Below are positions 55,013-64,000 of a stretch of 64,000 bases of DNA, piece after piece. Source of the stretch: Alphaproteobacteria bacterium (GTDB taxonomy: Bacteria > Pseudomonadota > Alphaproteobacteria > Micavibrionales > Micavibrionaceae); assembly GCA_030750865.1 (NCBI GenBank), contig JASMHE010000002.1, positions 1 to 64,000 on the forward strand, read 5' to 3'. A program made the position numbers and the translations under genes. The notes under the pieces were generated by a model that made no database searches, was not told where the DNA came from, and saw nothing but the letters and a program-made list of their open reading frames with translations. Positions within the stretch are counted from its first letter, which is position 1; every line of letters starts with the position of its first letter.

Positions 55013-55148
55013 GCGTTTGTTTTAGCCCCATATTTGCAGAATATCCAGACCTGTTTTTATCTTTTCCTACAATAAGAGATTGACCTTACGGAGTCTTTTC
55101 GCCACATTTATACCGTTCTGGATAAAACGCAAACAAGATGGATATAAA

Positions 55149-56390
55149 ATGACTCAGATCAAAGTACCCTCACTCGGTGAATCCGTAAGTGAAGCAACTG
55201 TTGCACAATGGCTGAAAAAAGAAGGTGATGCCGTGAAAGCCGACGAACCGATCGTCGAACTGGAAACGGATAAAGTAACACTGGAAGTCAACGCACCGGA
55301 AGACGGGGTGATCACAAGCATCACGATCGGCGAAGGCGAAGATGTTGAAGTCGGTACAATTCTGGGCGAAATCGAAGCCGGCGCAGCTGCTAACGATGCA
55401 AGCAGTTCTGATAAATCTGACAACAAAGACGAAAAAGCGGCCGCCGCAAAACAAGACGAGAAAAAAGAAGAGAAAGCGGATAGCGGCAAAGACCAATCCG
55501 ACAAGCTGTCACCGGCTGTGCGCAAACTGGTTGATGAAAATGATATCGATCCATCCGATATCAAAGGCACAGGCAAAGACGGCCGCCTGACAAAAGGCGA
55601 CGTTCAGGATTATCTGGAAACACAAAAATCCGCACCGGCATCTAAGTCAAGCAAACCGGCTGCACCGAAAGAACCGCGCGATCTGGGACCACGCGAAGAA
55701 CGCGTCAAAATGACCCGTCTGCGTCAGAAAATCGCAGAAAAACTGAAAGAAGCGCAAGATACGGCTGCCATGCTGACGACATTTAACGAAGTTGACATGA
55801 CTGCCGTTATGGAGGCCCGCAAAACATATCAGGATGGCTTTGTGAAAAAACACGGCGTGAAGCTCGGCTTTATGTCCTTCTTCACAAAAGCATGTGTCAA
55901 TGCCCTGAAAGAGTTTCCGGCTGTGAACGCCGAAATTGACGGCACGGACATTATTTACAAGAACTATTACGACATCAGCATGGCCGTCAGCACGCCGCAA
56001 GGTCTGGTCGTTCCGGTGATCAAGGATTGTGATTCCAAATCAATGGCGCAGATCGAAAAAGACATTATTGATGTCGGTACGCGCGCCCGTGACGGACAGC
56101 TTGCCATTGACGAGCTATCCGGCGGTACATTTACCATCACAAATGGCGGTATTTTCGGTTCACTAAATTCCACACCGATCATCAACACACCGCAATCTGC
56201 TATTCTGGGCATGCATAAAATCCAGCAGCGTCCGATGGTTATGCCGGACGGCAGCATCGAAGCACGCCCGATGATGTATCTGGCACTGTCATACGATCAC
56301 CGCATCATTGACGGCAAAGAAGCGGTGAGCTTCCTTGTGCGCGTGAAAGATGCGCTCGAAGATCCGCAACGCTTGATTCTGGAAGTCTAA
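55149..56390 (+). CDS. sucB: Dihydrolipoyl succinyltransferase (2-oxoglutarate dehydrogenase E2)
   Basis: The 413-residue protein has one lipoyl domain (ETDKVTLEV, lipoyl lysine K42), a Lys/Asp-rich linker, an E3/E1-binding domain ([21 protein letters not shown], about 119-139) and the catalytic domain ending with [12 protein letters not shown], whose histidine is catalytic. It passes succinyl from E1 to CoA. ATG 55149 is the family start; the longer frame is not. It also should serve as electron donor to AhpD through its lipoyl group. Confidence 0.97.
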
Positions 56391-58584: not shown

Positions 58585-59556
58585 CTATAGCGTTTTCACC
58601 GTCACGACATTATGATCGCTCAGCATTTGCAGGGCGGCATGGCCGTTATCATCCCGCGCCTTTGTTTGATCCCCGATAAAATAGCGGTCCAGCTTCGCGC
58701 CCAACATATTCACCTGTTCACGTGATGTCGGCACATGGGCGCTGTAAATATAACCGTTCCGGATAGACAGGCCGTACCGCGCCGCATTCATCAAAATGCG
58801 GTTCATCGGCTCCAGAATAAAACTATATTTCCCGCTGTTATTTTCGATCATGCGGCGATCTTGTTCCATCACATAGCCAAGCGCAGGATGCGCACGTGCA
58901 ATCAGCGCTTTATAAGACACCGCCTCTTCGGGGCCATGTTTTTCTGCCAGCGCAACGGCAAATTTACGGCCGCGATGCACACTGGCAAACTGCGCCACAA
59001 TATTTTGCAGGGATTCATCCGATATTTCAGGCACAGACAACAGCGCCACCGGATTTTCCTCTTCGGCGACAAAATCTTCGGGGGCTTCAAATAACGCCTC
59101 GATGATACGCTCTTTACGGTTTAAACGATAAACACTCACCCCGGCCCGTTTGCATAGCGGCATGGACAGCGATTCAAAATCAACCGTGCGGCGCTTTGCA
59201 AAATCCTTGTCGAAGCCTTTATGATCGATATACACATTCTTGATACCCGATTCGGTAATATTCTTGGCACAATTCGGGCAAAACAAATCCGTGACATAGA
59301 TATTCGCGCCGTCCGTAATGCGTGCTTTTAAAATCGCCGCCGTTTCCGCGTGAATGGTGCCGCTACTGTCACCGATCTTTGCATGACGTGCCAGCCCCAT
59401 CTTCAAAATCGAATCGGGCCAGTAATTCGCGCAGGAAACGCTGAATTCATGACGATCCAGATCAATGCCTGATACCGTGGCCGCGACCTTGCTCGTCGGG
59501 TGCTCACTGTGCTTTACAGCCTCGATTGTTTTCTGCATAAGGTGAAAATGCGGCAT
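58585..59556 (-). CDS. Two-domain cytidine/deoxycytidylate-deaminase-like protein with decayed second domain
   Basis: The 323-residue protein (ATG 59556) has an N-terminal zinc deaminase domain: HAE at 69-71 and CPNC with C93 and C96, spaced as in dCMP/cytidine deaminases, although the usual Pro before the first Cys is Phe. The second half repeats the fold: EPMNRILMNAARYGL (249-263) aligns with the HAExNAI helix and YSAHVPTSREQ (271-281) with the PCxxC loop, but all zinc ligands are gone. An active-plus-pseudo arrangement recalls E. coli cytidine deaminase. It is divergent from the cytosine-deaminase-like gene, 96 bases away. Confidence 0.72.
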   Translation of the reverse strand: MPHFHLMQKTIEAVKHSEHPTSKVAATVSGIDLDRHEFSVSCANYWPDSILKMGLARHAKIGDSSGTIHAETAAILKARITDGANIYVTDLFCPNCAKNITESGIKNVYIDHKGFDKDFAKRRTVDFESLSMPLCKRAGVSVYRLNRKERIIEALFEAPEDFVAEEENPVALLSVPEISDESLQNIVAQFASVHRGRKFAVALAEKHGPEEAVSYKALIARAHPALGYVMEQDRRMIENNSGKYSFILEPMNRILMNAARYGLSIRNGYIYSAHVPTSREQVNMLGAKLDRYFIGDQTKARDDNGHAALQMLSDHNVVTVKTL

Positions 59557-59652: not shown

Positions 59653-60144
59653 ATGCAAGCATGTGCATCTGAATCACATGATACACAGGAACAACTCTCA
59701 GATAAAGACAGAGAGTTTATGCATCAAGCATATGAACTGGCTTTGAAAGGCTATAATGAGGGCGGCTGCCCGATTGGCGCAATACTCGTGGACGAAGACG
59801 GAACCGTTTTAGGCGCAGGACACAACGCGCTTGTTCAAGAAGGCAATCCCATTATTCACGGCGAAATGGCCGCCATGCGCGATGCAGGGCGTCTTGATTC
59901 CCGCCGCAAAACAACAATGTATACATCCCTCAGCCCGTGCATGATGTGCGCTGGCACAATCGTACAATTCAAGATCGGACGCGTTGTTGTCGGGGATGTT
60001 GTGAACTCGCCGGGGAATGTTGAATTCCTCCGCGAAAAAGGCGTCACAGTGGACATACTGAACTATGAGCCCTGCATTGATCTTGTGAAGAAGTTTAGAG
60101 AAGAAAAGCCGGAACTCTGGCTGGAAGATTGGGGAGGAGCGTAA
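59653..60144 (+). CDS. Cytosine deaminase-like enzyme (yeast FCY1 type)
   Basis: The 163-residue protein has the zinc deaminase motifs HGE (69-71) and SPCMMC (C96, C99), and its C-terminus EEKPELWLEDWGG closely parallels the DERPxxWxEDxG end of yeast cytosine deaminase, which folds over the base. That end is absent from TadA. It likely converts cytosine to uracil and ammonia. ATG 59653 is chosen; the frame is open upstream into the divergent gene. It is 39 bases before the 957-residue fusion gene and probably cotranscribed. Confidence 0.78.
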   Translation: MQACASESHDTQEQLSDKDREFMHQAYELALKGYNEGGCPIGAILVDEDGTVLGAGHNALVQEGNPIIHGEMAAMRDAGRLDSRRKTTMYTSLSPCMMCAGTIVQFKIGRVVVGDVVNSPGNVEFLREKGVTVDILNYEPCIDLVKKFREEKPELWLEDWGGA

Positions 60145-60183: not shown

Positions 60184-63057
60184 ATGAGCACACAAAAAAC
60201 GATGAATGATTTCAATATAACACAATGGGCGGAAGAAACGCTCGCCCTTATCCTGCGCGGTGAAAAACCGGGCATTAATATGGATGACCCGAACCAGTCA
60301 TGGCTGTTCAAGCAAATGAAGCAAATGCACCGTGACGGCTTGCTTAGCGAAGTGCCCGAATCATACGTCGTTTTATTACCGGACGAAGACCCCGAAGACC
60401 AGAACCTGCTGCATGACAAAGGCGTCACCGTTCGTGAACCACTTCCAAAACAGCTTACAACCGAAGCATGGGGGCTAAAAGGCCTTCTCGAATCAAATTA
60501 TGATATCCGTAACGTTAAGGTTTTCGGTGAAGATTACGGTTTCCGTTATAAGCGCACAGCCACCGAGCAGCTTGATTATGCCGATGCCCTCGTTTTGACA
60601 AAGGGCGATCTTGTCGGTTTTCATCAATGGCTTTCCGTCTATAACGGACATCAGGACAAAACCGTCAACCTGAACGATAAGGTCTGCATTCTGCAAAACG
60701 CGGACGATTTCTGGAAACCGTTTCTGGATGTTGCGCCGGATATCGCCGATGATCACAACCGTTTTCTGGTCACGAACACCAACCATGATACGGCCAAACT
60801 GCTCAAGACATTGATGCCGCATGATCGCGCAAGCACACCGGCCCGCAACGAAGAAAGCGTACCGCAAATCAAGCCGGGCGATACAATCTTTAGCGTCACA
60901 GGCAACATTAAAAAGCCGCTTGAATATGACAAAGTCATGATGGCACGCGGCAACGGCATCCGCATCGATCACTTCCAGCGCGCCTTTGATATCAAACCCG
61001 AAAGGGCTGTTGAAACAAGCAATACATATGTTGGAAATAATATCGAGAAATTCGCGGCGCTGTATAACCTGATCAAACACGCCTATACGCCTGATCGTTT
61101 TGTGGCCGAGCTGGAGCGCAAACGATATTCACTGGAAAAATCTTATTTGCTGTTCGACGATAACGGTCTGGAAACAAACGCAAACCTGACAGACGGACCG
61201 GAATTCAGTGACTGCATGGCGTTACGCCAAAACTCTTATAAATCCTGTGGTCCAGGACCGGAAACAAAGCACCTGATGGGCGCTGTGCAAAACAGACCAT
61301 ATAACGGCGCTTACGGAACACTCAGCTTCGTCGAACGAATCAAAGCGGCCTATAACCGCAAACTGGAAGAACAGAAAGCACAAGGCGTTGAAGACCCACA
61401 CGTATCACTGGATGGTGGCGATCACGGCTGCGCTTTGGTTGCATCTCTGGCCGTACTGGTGGACCAGATTCGTCAGGGCATGAGCTTTGATGAAGTGATG
61501 GAAGCCAATGACTTCTTTATCTTCAGCGCGAAAACACATGACCGCATTGTGTTCGACCCCGAACCTGCTGTCGGCGCGATTGATACAAAGAACTTTACAA
61601 TCCCGAAATATGATCCGAAGGGCCGTACAAAGGCGATGAACAGAAATTATGTCGCCCACCACAGCCTCGGCGCACAATTGATCAAATCAATCTCACGCAC
61701 ATTCGGATTTGCACGCACAATCGCAGAACGCCAAGACCTGCGGGCGCAATTCTTCAAAGCCACAGGCCGCGAATTAACCATTGCTACGCAGCACACGATC
61801 GCAGAAGGACAGCAAAGCAAAGAACTGGAAACACTGTCTTATCCGTTGCAAGACGGCAATGGCGGTTTTTACGATATGGCCAACAGACGCCCGCACGAAA
61901 TTCCGCTGGCCGATGGCGAAGTCATGGAAATCGAAGCGCCGCTGAACAACTTTTCCGATATGTGTAAACAGGTTGACGGCTTTGTCTTCTCGAATGATGA
62001 TGACGCCCTGCGCGGACAGGATTATTTCTGGGAACGCAATTTCTATGCCTTCTCTATCCATGTCGGCAACCAGATCACAGACAAATCCATTGCCGGCAAA
62101 CCGTCAATCTTTCTGGAAGGTCCGGTCTGGGATCAACACCGCTCTGTTGTTGAAACATTCTGCGGCGGTCTTATTCCTGAAATGCCGGAATATCTTTACA
62201 AAGTCGCATCCGATACCAGCGAACTGGAAAAGAAAATCGGTACGCATTTTGAAAATTATTCGCCACACGAATTGCCCGAACATATCTATAAAGAAGGCGG
62301 TGAAAAAGCACCGGAAGACTTGTTCCGCGTCACTGTCTATTGTTCTGCAAGCTCGACAAACGCAGAATTCAAAGCCAAAGCCCGCCATTTTGCACTGGAT
62401 TGTGCCGGTCTCGGCTTTGCCTTGAAAAATGGCGGCGGTACAGGACCTGACGGTTTGATGACCGAAACAAGTGACGGCATGCACGATGCGAGAGAGCATT
62501 TCGCACCGTTCCTTGACTCATACGGTTACAAGTTACCGGTCAACCACGTAACAAGTATTCAGTGCCCTGAAACAGAACAGGAAGAAGGTCTGCGCAAAGA
62601 CAATGACTTCTGGTGTGTCTGGCCGAATATCTTCCTGCGCATGCAAGACCTGCAGGATACCGAAGCAGAGGTCGTTCTGCCGGGCGGCGCCGGAACAATT
62701 CAGGAAATTTGCGCCTCGATCATCATGCGGAAAAACGGTTTCACCGACGTTGAAAACCGCCCGTTGATTATTGTGGACTCAGACGGCATTTATCAGCCGT
62801 TCCTCGACACAATTCCGGCAGAAGATTACGAGAAATACAATATCCACGTCGTCCGTAGCGAAGGCCAAGCCCTAGAGCTTCTGATGGAAGCCCGCGAAGC
62901 CCGCAACATGACACCGGATCTGGATTATGATTACGAAGAGTATCAGGAACTGCGCGATGAATTCATGCAAAACCTGCCACCGGCCATTCGTCTGGCATTC
63001 TTCCCGTCACAAAAACCGGGCAATGACAACGATATGCCAGCCGTTTCACCGGCCTGA
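60184..63057 (+). CDS. Large fusion protein: LOG-like, ITPase/HAM1-like and LOG-type nucleosidase domains
   Basis: The 957-residue protein appears to combine several nucleotide enzymes. Residues 714-905 are a LOG (TIGR00730) domain with NGGGTGPDGLM (749-759) and PGGAGTIQE (833-841), the motif that cleaves nucleoside 5'-monophosphates to base and ribose-5-phosphate. Residues 233-505 resemble ITPase/HAM1: SVTGNIKKPLEY, VETSNTYVGNNIEKF, FDDNGLETNA (with its Asp pair), then FDPEP and a final KYDPKG...NRNYVAHHSLGAQLI stretch. Residues about 60-215 and 590-690 look like decayed LOG half-domains (YADALVLTKGDLVGF, QVDGFVFSNDDDALRG) without the catalytic motif. No signal peptide. The ribosome site is weak. 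Domain calls other than the C-terminal LOG are inference. Confidence 0.7.
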   Translation: MSTQKTMNDFNITQWAEETLALILRGEKPGINMDDPNQSWLFKQMKQMHRDGLLSEVPESYVVLLPDEDPEDQNLLHDKGVTVREPLPKQLTTEAWGLKGLLESNYDIRNVKVFGEDYGFRYKRTATEQLDYADALVLTKGDLVGFHQWLSVYNGHQDKTVNLNDKVCILQNADDFWKPFLDVAPDIADDHNRFLVTNTNHDTAKLLKTLMPHDRASTPARNEESVPQIKPGDTIFSVTGNIKKPLEYDKVMMARGNGIRIDHFQRAFDIKPERAVETSNTYVGNNIEKFAALYNLIKHAYTPDRFVAELERKRYSLEKSYLLFDDNGLETNANLTDGPEFSDCMALRQNSYKSCGPGPETKHLMGAVQNRPYNGAYGTLSFVERIKAAYNRKLEEQKAQGVEDPHVSLDGGDHGCALVASLAVLVDQIRQGMSFDEVMEANDFFIFSAKTHDRIVFDPEPAVGAIDTKNFTIPKYDPKGRTKAMNRNYVAHHSLGAQLIKSISRTFGFARTIAERQDLRAQFFKATGRELTIATQHTIAEGQQSKELETLSYPLQDGNGGFYDMANRRPHEIPLADGEVMEIEAPLNNFSDMCKQVDGFVFSNDDDALRGQDYFWERNFYAFSIHVGNQITDKSIAGKPSIFLEGPVWDQHRSVVETFCGGLIPEMPEYLYKVASDTSELEKKIGTHFENYSPHELPEHIYKEGGEKAPEDLFRVTVYCSASSTNAEFKAKARHFALDCAGLGFALKNGGGTGPDGLMTETSDGMHDAREHFAPFLDSYGYKLPVNHVTSIQCPETEQEEGLRKDNDFWCVWPNIFLRMQDLQDTEAEVVLPGGAGTIQEICASIIMRKNGFTDVENRPLIIVDSDGIYQPFLDTIPAEDYEKYNIHVVRSEGQALELLMEAREARNMTPDLDYDYEEYQELRDEFMQNLPPAIRLAFFPSQKPGNDNDMPAVSPA

Positions 63058-63083: not shown

Positions 63084-63115
63084 CATGTCCTTTATATCGT
63101 ATTATAAAGGACATG
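63084..63115 (+). promoter_or_regulatory. Perfect 13-bp hairpin upstream of lpd
   Basis: CATGTCCTTTATA (63084-63096) and TATAAAGGACATG (63103-63115) are exact complements with a 6-base loop, followed by TTTTA. The right arm contains AAAGGA, 9 bases before an in-frame ATG at 63120. It may be a weak terminator for the upstream fusion gene, a mask on the lpd ribosome site, or both. Confidence 0.55.
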
Positions 63116-63152: not shown

Positions 63153-64000
63153 ATGAGCAAGAGTAATACAGAGTTTGACGTTATTGTTATTGGCGCGGGT
63201 CCGGGCGGATATGTTTGCGCCATCCGTGCCGCGCAATTGGGCCTGAAAACGGCTTGCGTTGAAAAACGGGACACACTCGGCGGTACATGTCTGAATATCG
63301 GCTGCATCCCCTCAAAAGCGCTTTTGCATGCTTCTGAAAAATACAGCGAAGCCGAGAACCATTTCGCGGATTTTGGTATCAAAACAGGCAAAGTCTCTCT
63401 CGACCTGAAAGCGATGATGAAACACAAAGACGATGTTGTCGATTCGAATACAAAAGGGATCGAGTTCCTGTTCAAAAAAAACAAGATCACATGGCTGAAA
63501 GGTGCGGGTAGTATTCCGGCCAAAGGCGAAGTCAAAGTCGGCAAAGATACTTACAAAGCAAAACACATCGTGATCGCGACCGGATCGGATGTCGCCAGCC
63601 TGCCGGGCATTGAAATCGACGAAAAGAAAGTTGTCTCGTCCACAGGCGCACTTGAACTGACAAAAGTGCCGAACAAAATGGTTGTCATTGGCGGCGGCGT
63701 GATCGGTCTGGAAATGGCCGCTGTCTGGAGCCGTCTTGGCGCAAGCGTCACTGTCATCGAATATATGAACAAAATTCTGCCGCCAATGGATAACGAAATT
63801 TCCAAAGAAGCACAGAAAATTTTCAAAAAACAAGGGCTGGACTTCAAGCTCAGCACAAAGGTCACCGAAGTAAAGAACACAAAATCAGGTGTTAAACTGA
63901 CGACAGAACCGGCCAATGGCGGCGATGCCGAAACCCTTGACGCCGATATCGTACTGGTTGCCGTCGGCCGCAAGGCTTATACGGATAAGCTGGGACTGGA
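63153..64000 (+). CDS. lpd: Dihydrolipoyl dehydrogenase (E3), 3' end outside window
   Basis: The visible 282 residues have the FAD motif VIVIGAGPGGYVCA, the redox disulfide GGTCLNIGCIPSKALL and the NAD motif VIGGGVIGLEMAAVW. E3 reoxidises lipoyl groups of SucB and other 2-oxoacid dehydrogenases. ATG 63153 follows AAAGATAGG; an in-frame ATG at 63120 with AAAGGA upstream would add 11 residues. It normally lies next to sucB; here five genes separate them. The coding frame runs off the window edge. Confidence 0.95.
   Translation, partial: MSKSNTEFDVIVIGAGPGGYVCAIRAAQLGLKTACVEKRDTLGGTCLNIGCIPSKALLHASEKYSEAENHFADFGIKTGKVSLDLKAMMKHKDDVVDSNTKGIEFLFKKNKITWLKGAGSIPAKGEVKVGKDTYKAKHIVIATGSDVASLPGIEIDEKKVVSSTGALELTKVPNKMVVIGGGVIGLEMAAVWSRLGASVTVIEYMNKILPPMDNEISKEAQKIFKKQGLDFKLSTKVTEVKNTKSGVKLTTEPANGGDAETLDADIVLVAVGRKAYTDKLGL

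Follow-up and report, generated by a model that had tools for sequence, protein, structure and literature searches.

The DNA analysed here, the window, is a stretch of 64,000 nucleotides (positions 1 to 64,000 of contig JASMHE010000002.1, assembly GCA_030750865.1) from an alphaproteobacterium of the family Micavibrionaceae, a relative of predatory bacteria, and near its end lies a gene whose predicted product joins an ITPase/HAM1-fold domain and LOG-type nucleosidase parts in a single chain. The open reading frame (ORF) runs on the plus strand from the ATG at 60184 to the stop at 63057, encodes 957 amino acids and contains no internal stop. Its parts are the following:

60184..63057, plus strand: fusion protein of 957 amino acids, in the order LOG-like half, ITPase/HAM1-fold domain, LOG-like half, LOG domain
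60571..60813, plus strand: N-terminal LOG-like half (residues ~130-210; hhalign), with Gln148 where LOG enzymes have their catalytic glutamate
60874..61719, plus strand: ITPase/HAM1-fold domain (residues ~231-512; hhalign, PDB profile match and VIA-align)
60898..60915, plus strand: TGNIKK motif (residues 239-244, including K244)
61012..61050, plus strand: ETSNTYVGNNIEK motif (residues 277-289, including E277, N285 and K289)
61153..61173, plus strand: FDDNGLE motif (residues 324-330, including D326)
61936..62253, plus strand: middle LOG-like half (residues ~585-690; hhalign)
62317..62910, plus strand: complete LOG domain (residues ~712-909; hhalign, VIA-align, and TIGR00730 below its cut-off)
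62638..62706, plus strand: LOG catalytic R819 and the PGGAGTIQE motif (residues 833-841) with E841, by residue conservation

A fusion of ITPase/HAM1-like and LOG parts over 957 residues in this order had been proposed from the letters alone (the original prediction), and profiles, a PDB search and structure models agree with it. A profile of the ITPase region, built from 32 family rows over residues 226-515, aligned with 29 canonical RdgB proteins from related genomes along the length of the domain (hhalign score 73.1, probability 96.8), compared with a maximum score of 17.9 for 40 column-shuffled controls and scores of at most 20.5 for the remaining domains of the fusion proteins. Searched against 177,635 PDB sequences, an 18-member profile of the domain found 6wwd, a deoxyinosine/xanthosine triphosphate (dITP/XTP) pyrophosphatase, at E 0.0013; the second and last match at E ≤ 1 was an unrelated synthase (E 0.97). 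The Pfam family Ham1p_like (PF01725) was matched at E ≤ 0.1 by 11 of the 18 member domain sequences, the window's own not being one of them, and each of the four further Pfam families listed for these domains came from one member. When five whole family proteins were scanned with PF01725, those of loci L004 (22.6 bits) and L176 (23.3 bits) passed the 22.5-bit cut-off, that of L027 (17.2 bits) failed it, and those of L177 and L180 were absent from the matches.

An AlphaFold model of the domain alone (residues 226-515; 5 sequences) reached a predicted local distance difference test score (pLDDT) of 73.9 and a predicted template modelling score (pTM) of 0.70. Its Foldseek matches were ITPase/HAM1 proteins at ranks 1-24 (best E 5.0e-6), KomBC at ranks 25-26 and a Maf protein at rank 27, so that neither a missing ITPase-fold match nor an unrelated fold, the outcomes that would speak against the original prediction, was found for residues 226-520. 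In VIA-align, ranks 1-19 were ITPase, HAM1 or KomBC chains with Z scores of 12.1-9.4 (KomBC chains 9xvc 11.0, 8zsg 10.4 and 9v0g 9.4), and ranks 20-30 (Z 8.0-6.5) were Maf proteins plus the HAM1-family chain 6wwd (7.8) and HcgB (7.5), followed by YjjX at 5.4 and all others at 4.3 or below. A model of the whole protein assigns the ITPase fold to residues ~233-512 and the LOG fold to ~712-909, as the other evidence does. Family profiles, the PDB profile search and the domain-alone model thus agree on an ITPase/HAM1 fold.

The C-terminal LOG domain reached an hhalign score of 172.8 (probability 99.8; shuffled maximum 18.5) against 16 stand-alone LOG proteins, and in the whole-protein model it aligned with 3qua at Z 12.8 in VIA-align. 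The LOG signal of the window protein itself is clear but divergent: among PDB sequences it matched LOG chains at E 0.0002 at best, and it matched TIGR00730 at E 1.2e-12 (47.9 bits, under the cut-off of 96.35) and scored 26.8 bits with PF03641, just under the cut-off of 27. Two decayed LOG-like halves had also been suggested, and both were recovered against the same 16 proteins, the N-terminal one with a score of 71.9 (probability 97.0) and the middle one with 60.9 (probability 96.3), each with a shuffled maximum of 17.2; in both regions, residues ~130-210 and ~585-690, the C-terminal half of a LOG domain alone is recognisable. For the N-terminal half, 23 rows have a letter at residue 148, where the catalytic glutamate would stand; 16 of them carry Q and 2 carry E, so this half is most likely inactive. 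Both halves probably have a structural or dimer-interface role. By these profiles and models, the family is a real fusion of two known kinds of enzyme that are usually found apart.

Several other matches were set aside. Hda_lid, GGDEF_GdpP and Peptidase_M27 scored 16.7, 16.9 and 13.2 bits on the window protein against Pfam cut-offs of 27, 30 and 27; the latter two came up again when the domain was scanned by itself (19.1 and 15.8 bits), each in one of the 18 members and inside the region modelled as ITPase. A DprA-like match (phrog_23875, E 0.0012) falls in the LOG domain and was taken as a fold relative.

The motifs TGNIKK (239-244), ETSNTYVGNNIEK (277-289), FDDNGLE (324-330) and PGGAGTIQE (833-841) lie where the original prediction had placed them. 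Residues were counted in 36 aligned rows out of 39, leaving out the two most divergent (L151 and L152) and an N-terminal fragment (L153). Among rows with a letter at the position, K244 is lysine in 31 of 31, E277, K289 and D326 are each invariant in 32 of 32, and N285 in 33 of 33; in the LOG domain, R819, G835, G837 and E841 are each kept in 32 of 32. Of the two aspartates earlier singled out for the ITPase cleft, D326 is therefore invariant and D325 varies (N in 13 and D in 10 of the 36 rows, besides other residues). The remainder of the LOG motif is less fixed (T838 28/32, G834 25/32, P833 7/32 and G752 30/32). The divergent rows L151 and L152 retain K244, E277, D326, R819, G835, G837 and E841.

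In canonical ITPases, the SHR and GFGYDP motifs serve base recognition. The triphosphate-side motifs T/SxNxxK, ExxxTxxxN...K and D are present in the family, whereas none of 32 family rows has SHR, which all 29 RdgB proteins have, or a GFGYDP-type motif, which 24 of the 29 have; the 29 RdgB and 16 LOG sequences used for comparison had been selected with motif patterns, starting from 30 loci for each family, and neither SHR nor GFGYDP belonged to these patterns. These counts indicate that the phosphate-handling side of the domain is kept and its base-reading side altered. Since the base-recognition motifs are missing, the substrate is probably not simply inosine triphosphate (ITP) or XTP, and 'ITPase' is used here as the name of a fold, not of a substrate. 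The domain thus has the fold and the triphosphate-side residues in common with RdgB, HAM1 and ITPA, and differs from them in lacking any SHR or GFGYDP-type motif, in being about 80 residues longer and in being fused. With the LOG family, the fusion shares the fold, R819, G835, G837, E841 and most of the GGG..G.M motif; unlike stand-alone LOG proteins, it stays under the NCBIfam cut-off, is fused, carries two degenerate halves and rarely has the proline of PGG (7 of 32 rows). PpnN is a LOG-fold nucleoside monophosphate (NMP) nucleosidase with extra domains; the LOG domain of the fusion aligns with it at a Z of about 12 in VIA-align, the flanking domains differ, and PpnN is not known to have an ITPase-fold domain.

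The gene order in the window is sucB, a Cys/Met pyridoxal phosphate enzyme, a helix-turn-helix protein, a deaminase-fold protein (CDA2, divergent), a yeast-type cytosine deaminase (CDA1), the fusion gene and lpd. The neighbours discussed below are:

55080-56390: sucB (TIGR01347, E 6.8e-177, 588.7 against 378.65 bits)
58585..59556, minus strand: CDA2, deaminase-fold protein (dCMP_cyt_deam_1, E 2.3e-8; phrog_174, deoxycytidine monophosphate deaminase, 1.6e-15), start inferred
59653..60144, plus strand: CDA1, yeast-type cytosine deaminase by PDB profile, start inferred, 39-nucleotide gap to the fusion gene
63153..64000, plus strand: lpd, dihydrolipoyl dehydrogenase, likely ATG at 63153, extending past the window end

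The whole lpd frame, read at locus L035, matches TIGR01350 at E 3.2e-180 (599.8 bits, cut-off 408.8). Between the fusion gene and lpd, at 63084-63115, lies a perfect inverted repeat with two 13-base arms and a 6-base loop, followed by TTTT, which could possibly be a terminator or an operator. Of the 34 fusion-bearing genomes of the order, 27 have lpd no more than 2 kb downstream of the fusion, 21 have a divergent CDA2 upstream within 3.5 kb, and 12 have CDA1 directly upstream; three of the 13 genomes without an upstream CDA2 (G014, G122 and G123) reach a contig edge there.

The PDB matches of CDA1 were led by 13 sequences of cytosine deaminases (E 1.3e-35 to 1.4e-33), with yeast Fcy1 on top over residues 17-162 of 164 (E 1.3e-35), and the next-best kinds were 3ocq (E 1.1e-15) and TadA (7.6e-15). 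Its zinc and C-terminal residues, HGE, PCxxC and ED, are invariant in 12 of 12 rows. None of the NCBIfam cytosine deaminase models matched, and the best NCBIfam model was TadA (71.5 against 150 bits). CDA1 differs from Fcy1 in being bacterial and clustered with the fusion gene. Strong CDA1 matches (E < 1e-77) were found in 17 genomes, 14 of them within the 34; of the other three, G059 and G064 each carry a divergent fusion, and no fusion was found in G111. We gave up the idea that CDA1 is strictly linked to the N-terminal LOG-like half, because CDA1 also precedes the divergent short copies in G059 and G064, even though the half is present in all 12 members next to CDA1.

CDA2 has an intact first domain of the HAE/PCxxC type and a conserved second part. 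At E ≤ 1e-3 it was matched in 109 of the 142 genomes, a count that takes in weak matches which are likely other deaminases. At 16 further loci of the order chosen by us, CDA2 stands between sucB and lpd with no fusion detected in 12. In eight of these, nothing else notable lies between CDA2 and lpd (L184, L186-L189 and L193-L195), and in the rest there are additional genes or a gap (L183, L185, L190 and L191); the remaining four of the 16 loci hold divergent fusions (L180, L181 and L192) or CDA1 only (L182). CDA2 was found more widely than the fusion and was dropped as its dedicated partner. Both deaminases match the PADLOC dCTPase weakly and partially (E 9.8e-11 and 2.2e-9, over about 50 of 630 positions) and the anti-phage deoxycytidine triphosphate (dCTP) deaminase model NF041025 at 34.5 and 28.5 bits against a cut-off of 400.

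Other genes occur in the same slot or beside the fusion. An adenosine monophosphate (AMP) nucleosidase occupies the place between CDA2 and lpd in G030 (E 1.4e-141), and another directly follows the fusion, elsewhere in the genome, in G066 (E 1.1e-202; L134 5895-9612). At this locus in G125, two CDA2 copies flank a hydantoinase/carbamoylase-family amidase, and a separate LOG-family gene adjoins a partial fusion relative in G173. In G035 (L033 4984-7179), an RNase R-like gene is found directly 5' of a short fusion (TIGR02063, E 1.5e-55, below cut-off); RNase R yields nucleotide monophosphates. In G022 (L183 8235-11455), two proteins fill the slot between CDA2 and lpd, one with a CYTH domain and one that matches no family.

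Of 58 related genomes searched at the protein level, 15 were matched, in some cases just through LOG-size frames. When 142 genomes of this Micavibrionales-like order were searched by alignment, 128 were matched, mostly in the LOG part only. In a separate set of genome contigs, a protein-only scan gave no match and an alignment scan gave four loci, which appear to be the contigs of G123, G010, G014 and G043 and do not count as further relatives. ORFs of at least 150 amino acids from the loci fetched after the alignment search were then tested against a whole-family profile, which at E < 1e-12 identified 39 ORFs or fragments in 34 of the 142 genomes; in five of these (G001, G026, G055, G095 and G102) the gene is split over two contigs. 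Three divergent copies in the same chromosomal slot (G059, G064 and G025; L180 9566-11839, L181 9482-11707 and L192 8231-10570) scored E 1e-11 to 2e-16, which points to a family with more members than those counted here. Outside the order, long relatives were found among 385 genomes of the class in G274, G251 and G173 (partial), with a weaker one in G447, and in a phylum sample of 398 genomes G251 alone stands out beside the window's own genome; in all, 78 of the 385 and 43 of the 398 genomes were matched, mostly by short matches to LOG- or RdgB-size frames. The window's own genome also encodes one canonical RdgB and two stand-alone LOG proteins above cut-off, and the fusion is therefore an addition to these.

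In 14 genome pairs that we chose, the fusion proteins are 23-53% identical over 35-98% of their length, some alignments spanning just 35% of the protein, whereas lpd is 69-94% and CDA2 33-68% identical. Within one genus, the fusions of G092 and G099 share 23.5% identity across 42% of the length, and their lpd proteins 89%. Drift of this kind, with the active sites unchanged, points to changing substrates or to conflict. In trees of each domain together with the stand-alone enzymes, the fusion domains all fall on one side, which weakly favours one fusion event: the fusion rows are monophyletic (support 1.0) only when rooted on the stand-alone enzymes, a nearly automatic outcome, and not with midpoint rooting.

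ITPases convert a nucleoside triphosphate (NTP) to an NMP and pyrophosphate, and LOG enzymes split an NMP into a base and ribose 5-phosphate. With slightly better than even confidence, we propose that the fusion is an NTP pyrophosphatase and an NMP nucleosidase in one chain, a bifunctional degrader of nucleotides. From a triphosphate, its ITPase/HAM1-fold domain would release the monophosphate and pyrophosphate, the C-terminal LOG domain would cleave this monophosphate into free base and ribose 5-phosphate, and in this genome the freed base could pass to the neighbouring deaminase CDA1. What the sequences show is the domain content and order, the conservation of the catalytic side, the lost base-recognition motifs and the neighbourhood. 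The degrader is favoured because both folds are supported by profiles and models, the catalytic-side residues are invariant in rows with letters despite the low identity of the fusion proteins beside that of lpd, and the neighbours, namely CDA1, the AMP nucleosidases of G066 and G030 and the LOG-family gene of G173, fit nucleotide breakdown. As CDA1 adjoins the fusion, cytosine nucleotides (cytidine triphosphate (CTP) or dCTP, or a damaged or modified form) would be one likely substrate. We infer the activity of both domains, their sequential action on one nucleotide and the identity of the base.

A number of observations weigh against this proposal or the fusion assignment on which it builds. 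The whole-protein model is weak (pLDDT 61.7, pTM 0.42), and the window protein alone gives no Ham1p_like match at E ≤ 1. When PF01725 was searched through 38 whole genomes, including nine that bear the fusion, only two fusion genes were matched (G014 at 25.4 bits and G043 at 19.2 bits, the latter under the 22.5-bit cut-off), and the G074 member scores with the family profile on its LOG part only. Both left-out divergent rows (L151 and L152, of G032 and G074) have isoleucine at 289, and L152 has glycine at 285. In the neighbourhood, lpd is not nearby in 7 of the 34 genomes, and the adjacency of CDA1 is limited to 12 of them. Finally, the fast divergence is unusual in a housekeeping enzyme.

That divergence bears directly on the main alternative, namely a conflict or defence module that resembles the Kongming system (KomA-KomB-KomC), in which a HAM1-fold protein likewise has a deaminase partner, KomA. 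The neighbouring deaminases would alter a nucleotide, the HAM1-fold domain would sense it and the LOG domain would act as an effector destroying nucleotide monophosphates. Two reports on Kongming (PMC12774641, PMC12948488) describe how the NADase of KomC is switched on by dITP bound to KomB. KomBC chains are among the structural matches of the domain-alone model (Z 11.0, 10.4 and 9.4), the deaminases adjoining the fusion weakly match anti-phage dCTP deaminase models, and the fusion evolves fast in a slot that holds other genes in some genomes. However, the fusion adjoins a core gene, lpd, in 27 of 34 genomes and retains both catalytic sites, and its HAM1-fold domain differs from Kongming in being fused to LOG, beside a deaminase of the cytosine type. 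Neither a SIR2 nor a TIR family turned up in the five window proteins scanned, a search that did not take in the rest of the genome for SIR2; PADLOC has no family for the fusion itself, and tblastn gave no match to the fusion among 50,697 phage and 72,556 plasmid records. Taken together, we regard such a module as unlikely. Similarly doubtful is a combination of the two ideas, in which nucleotides would be broken down from triphosphate to base by passing the monophosphate between the fused sites, and the fusion with its deaminases might form a fast-evolving weapon or sensor of the nucleotide pool in Micavibrio relatives, following a Kongming-like logic with an effector that destroys nucleotides instead of nicotinamide adenine dinucleotide (NAD).

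The loss of the ITPase base-recognition motifs (both 0 of 32) could also be explained if the HAM1-fold domain were a non-catalytic nucleotide sensor regulating the LOG nucleosidase, comparable to alarmone binding in PpnN. For a HAM1-fold sensor protein, KomB offers a precedent (PMC12774641, PMC12948488). A pure binding domain would not require invariant K244, E277, K289 and D326, and we give this explanation a slightly lower chance than the defence module. Least probable is a scavenging enzyme of a predatory lifestyle turning prey nucleotides into ribose 5-phosphate and bases, to which two relatives named Micavibrio, the AMP nucleosidases (G066 and G030) and the amidase of G125 near the fusion or its slot lend some colour, but predation is only presumed for this organism and NMPs from prey would need no NTP pyrophosphatase step.

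The bifunctional degrader has a counterpart in yeast, where Log1 (YJL055W) has been proposed on the basis of yeast genetics to act downstream of Ham1 in removing non-canonical nucleotides (Carlsson, Hu and Ronne 2018; PMC5940212). The two enzyme kinds are the same, and the proposed action is likewise sequential; in yeast they are two separate proteins, whereas here they form one chain with base-recognition motifs unlike those of canonical ITPases. Among the open-licence papers listed in literature searches, none describes a Ham1-LOG fusion in its title or the start of its abstract, and an earlier mention elsewhere is possible. A single gene that joins two kinds of enzyme suggested by yeast genetics to act in sequence gives independent genomic support for the proposed Ham1-Log1 pathway and makes it directly testable with a single purified protein. 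For this poorly studied order, it places a fast-evolving gene with nucleotide-degrading signatures within the 2-oxoglutarate dehydrogenase region.

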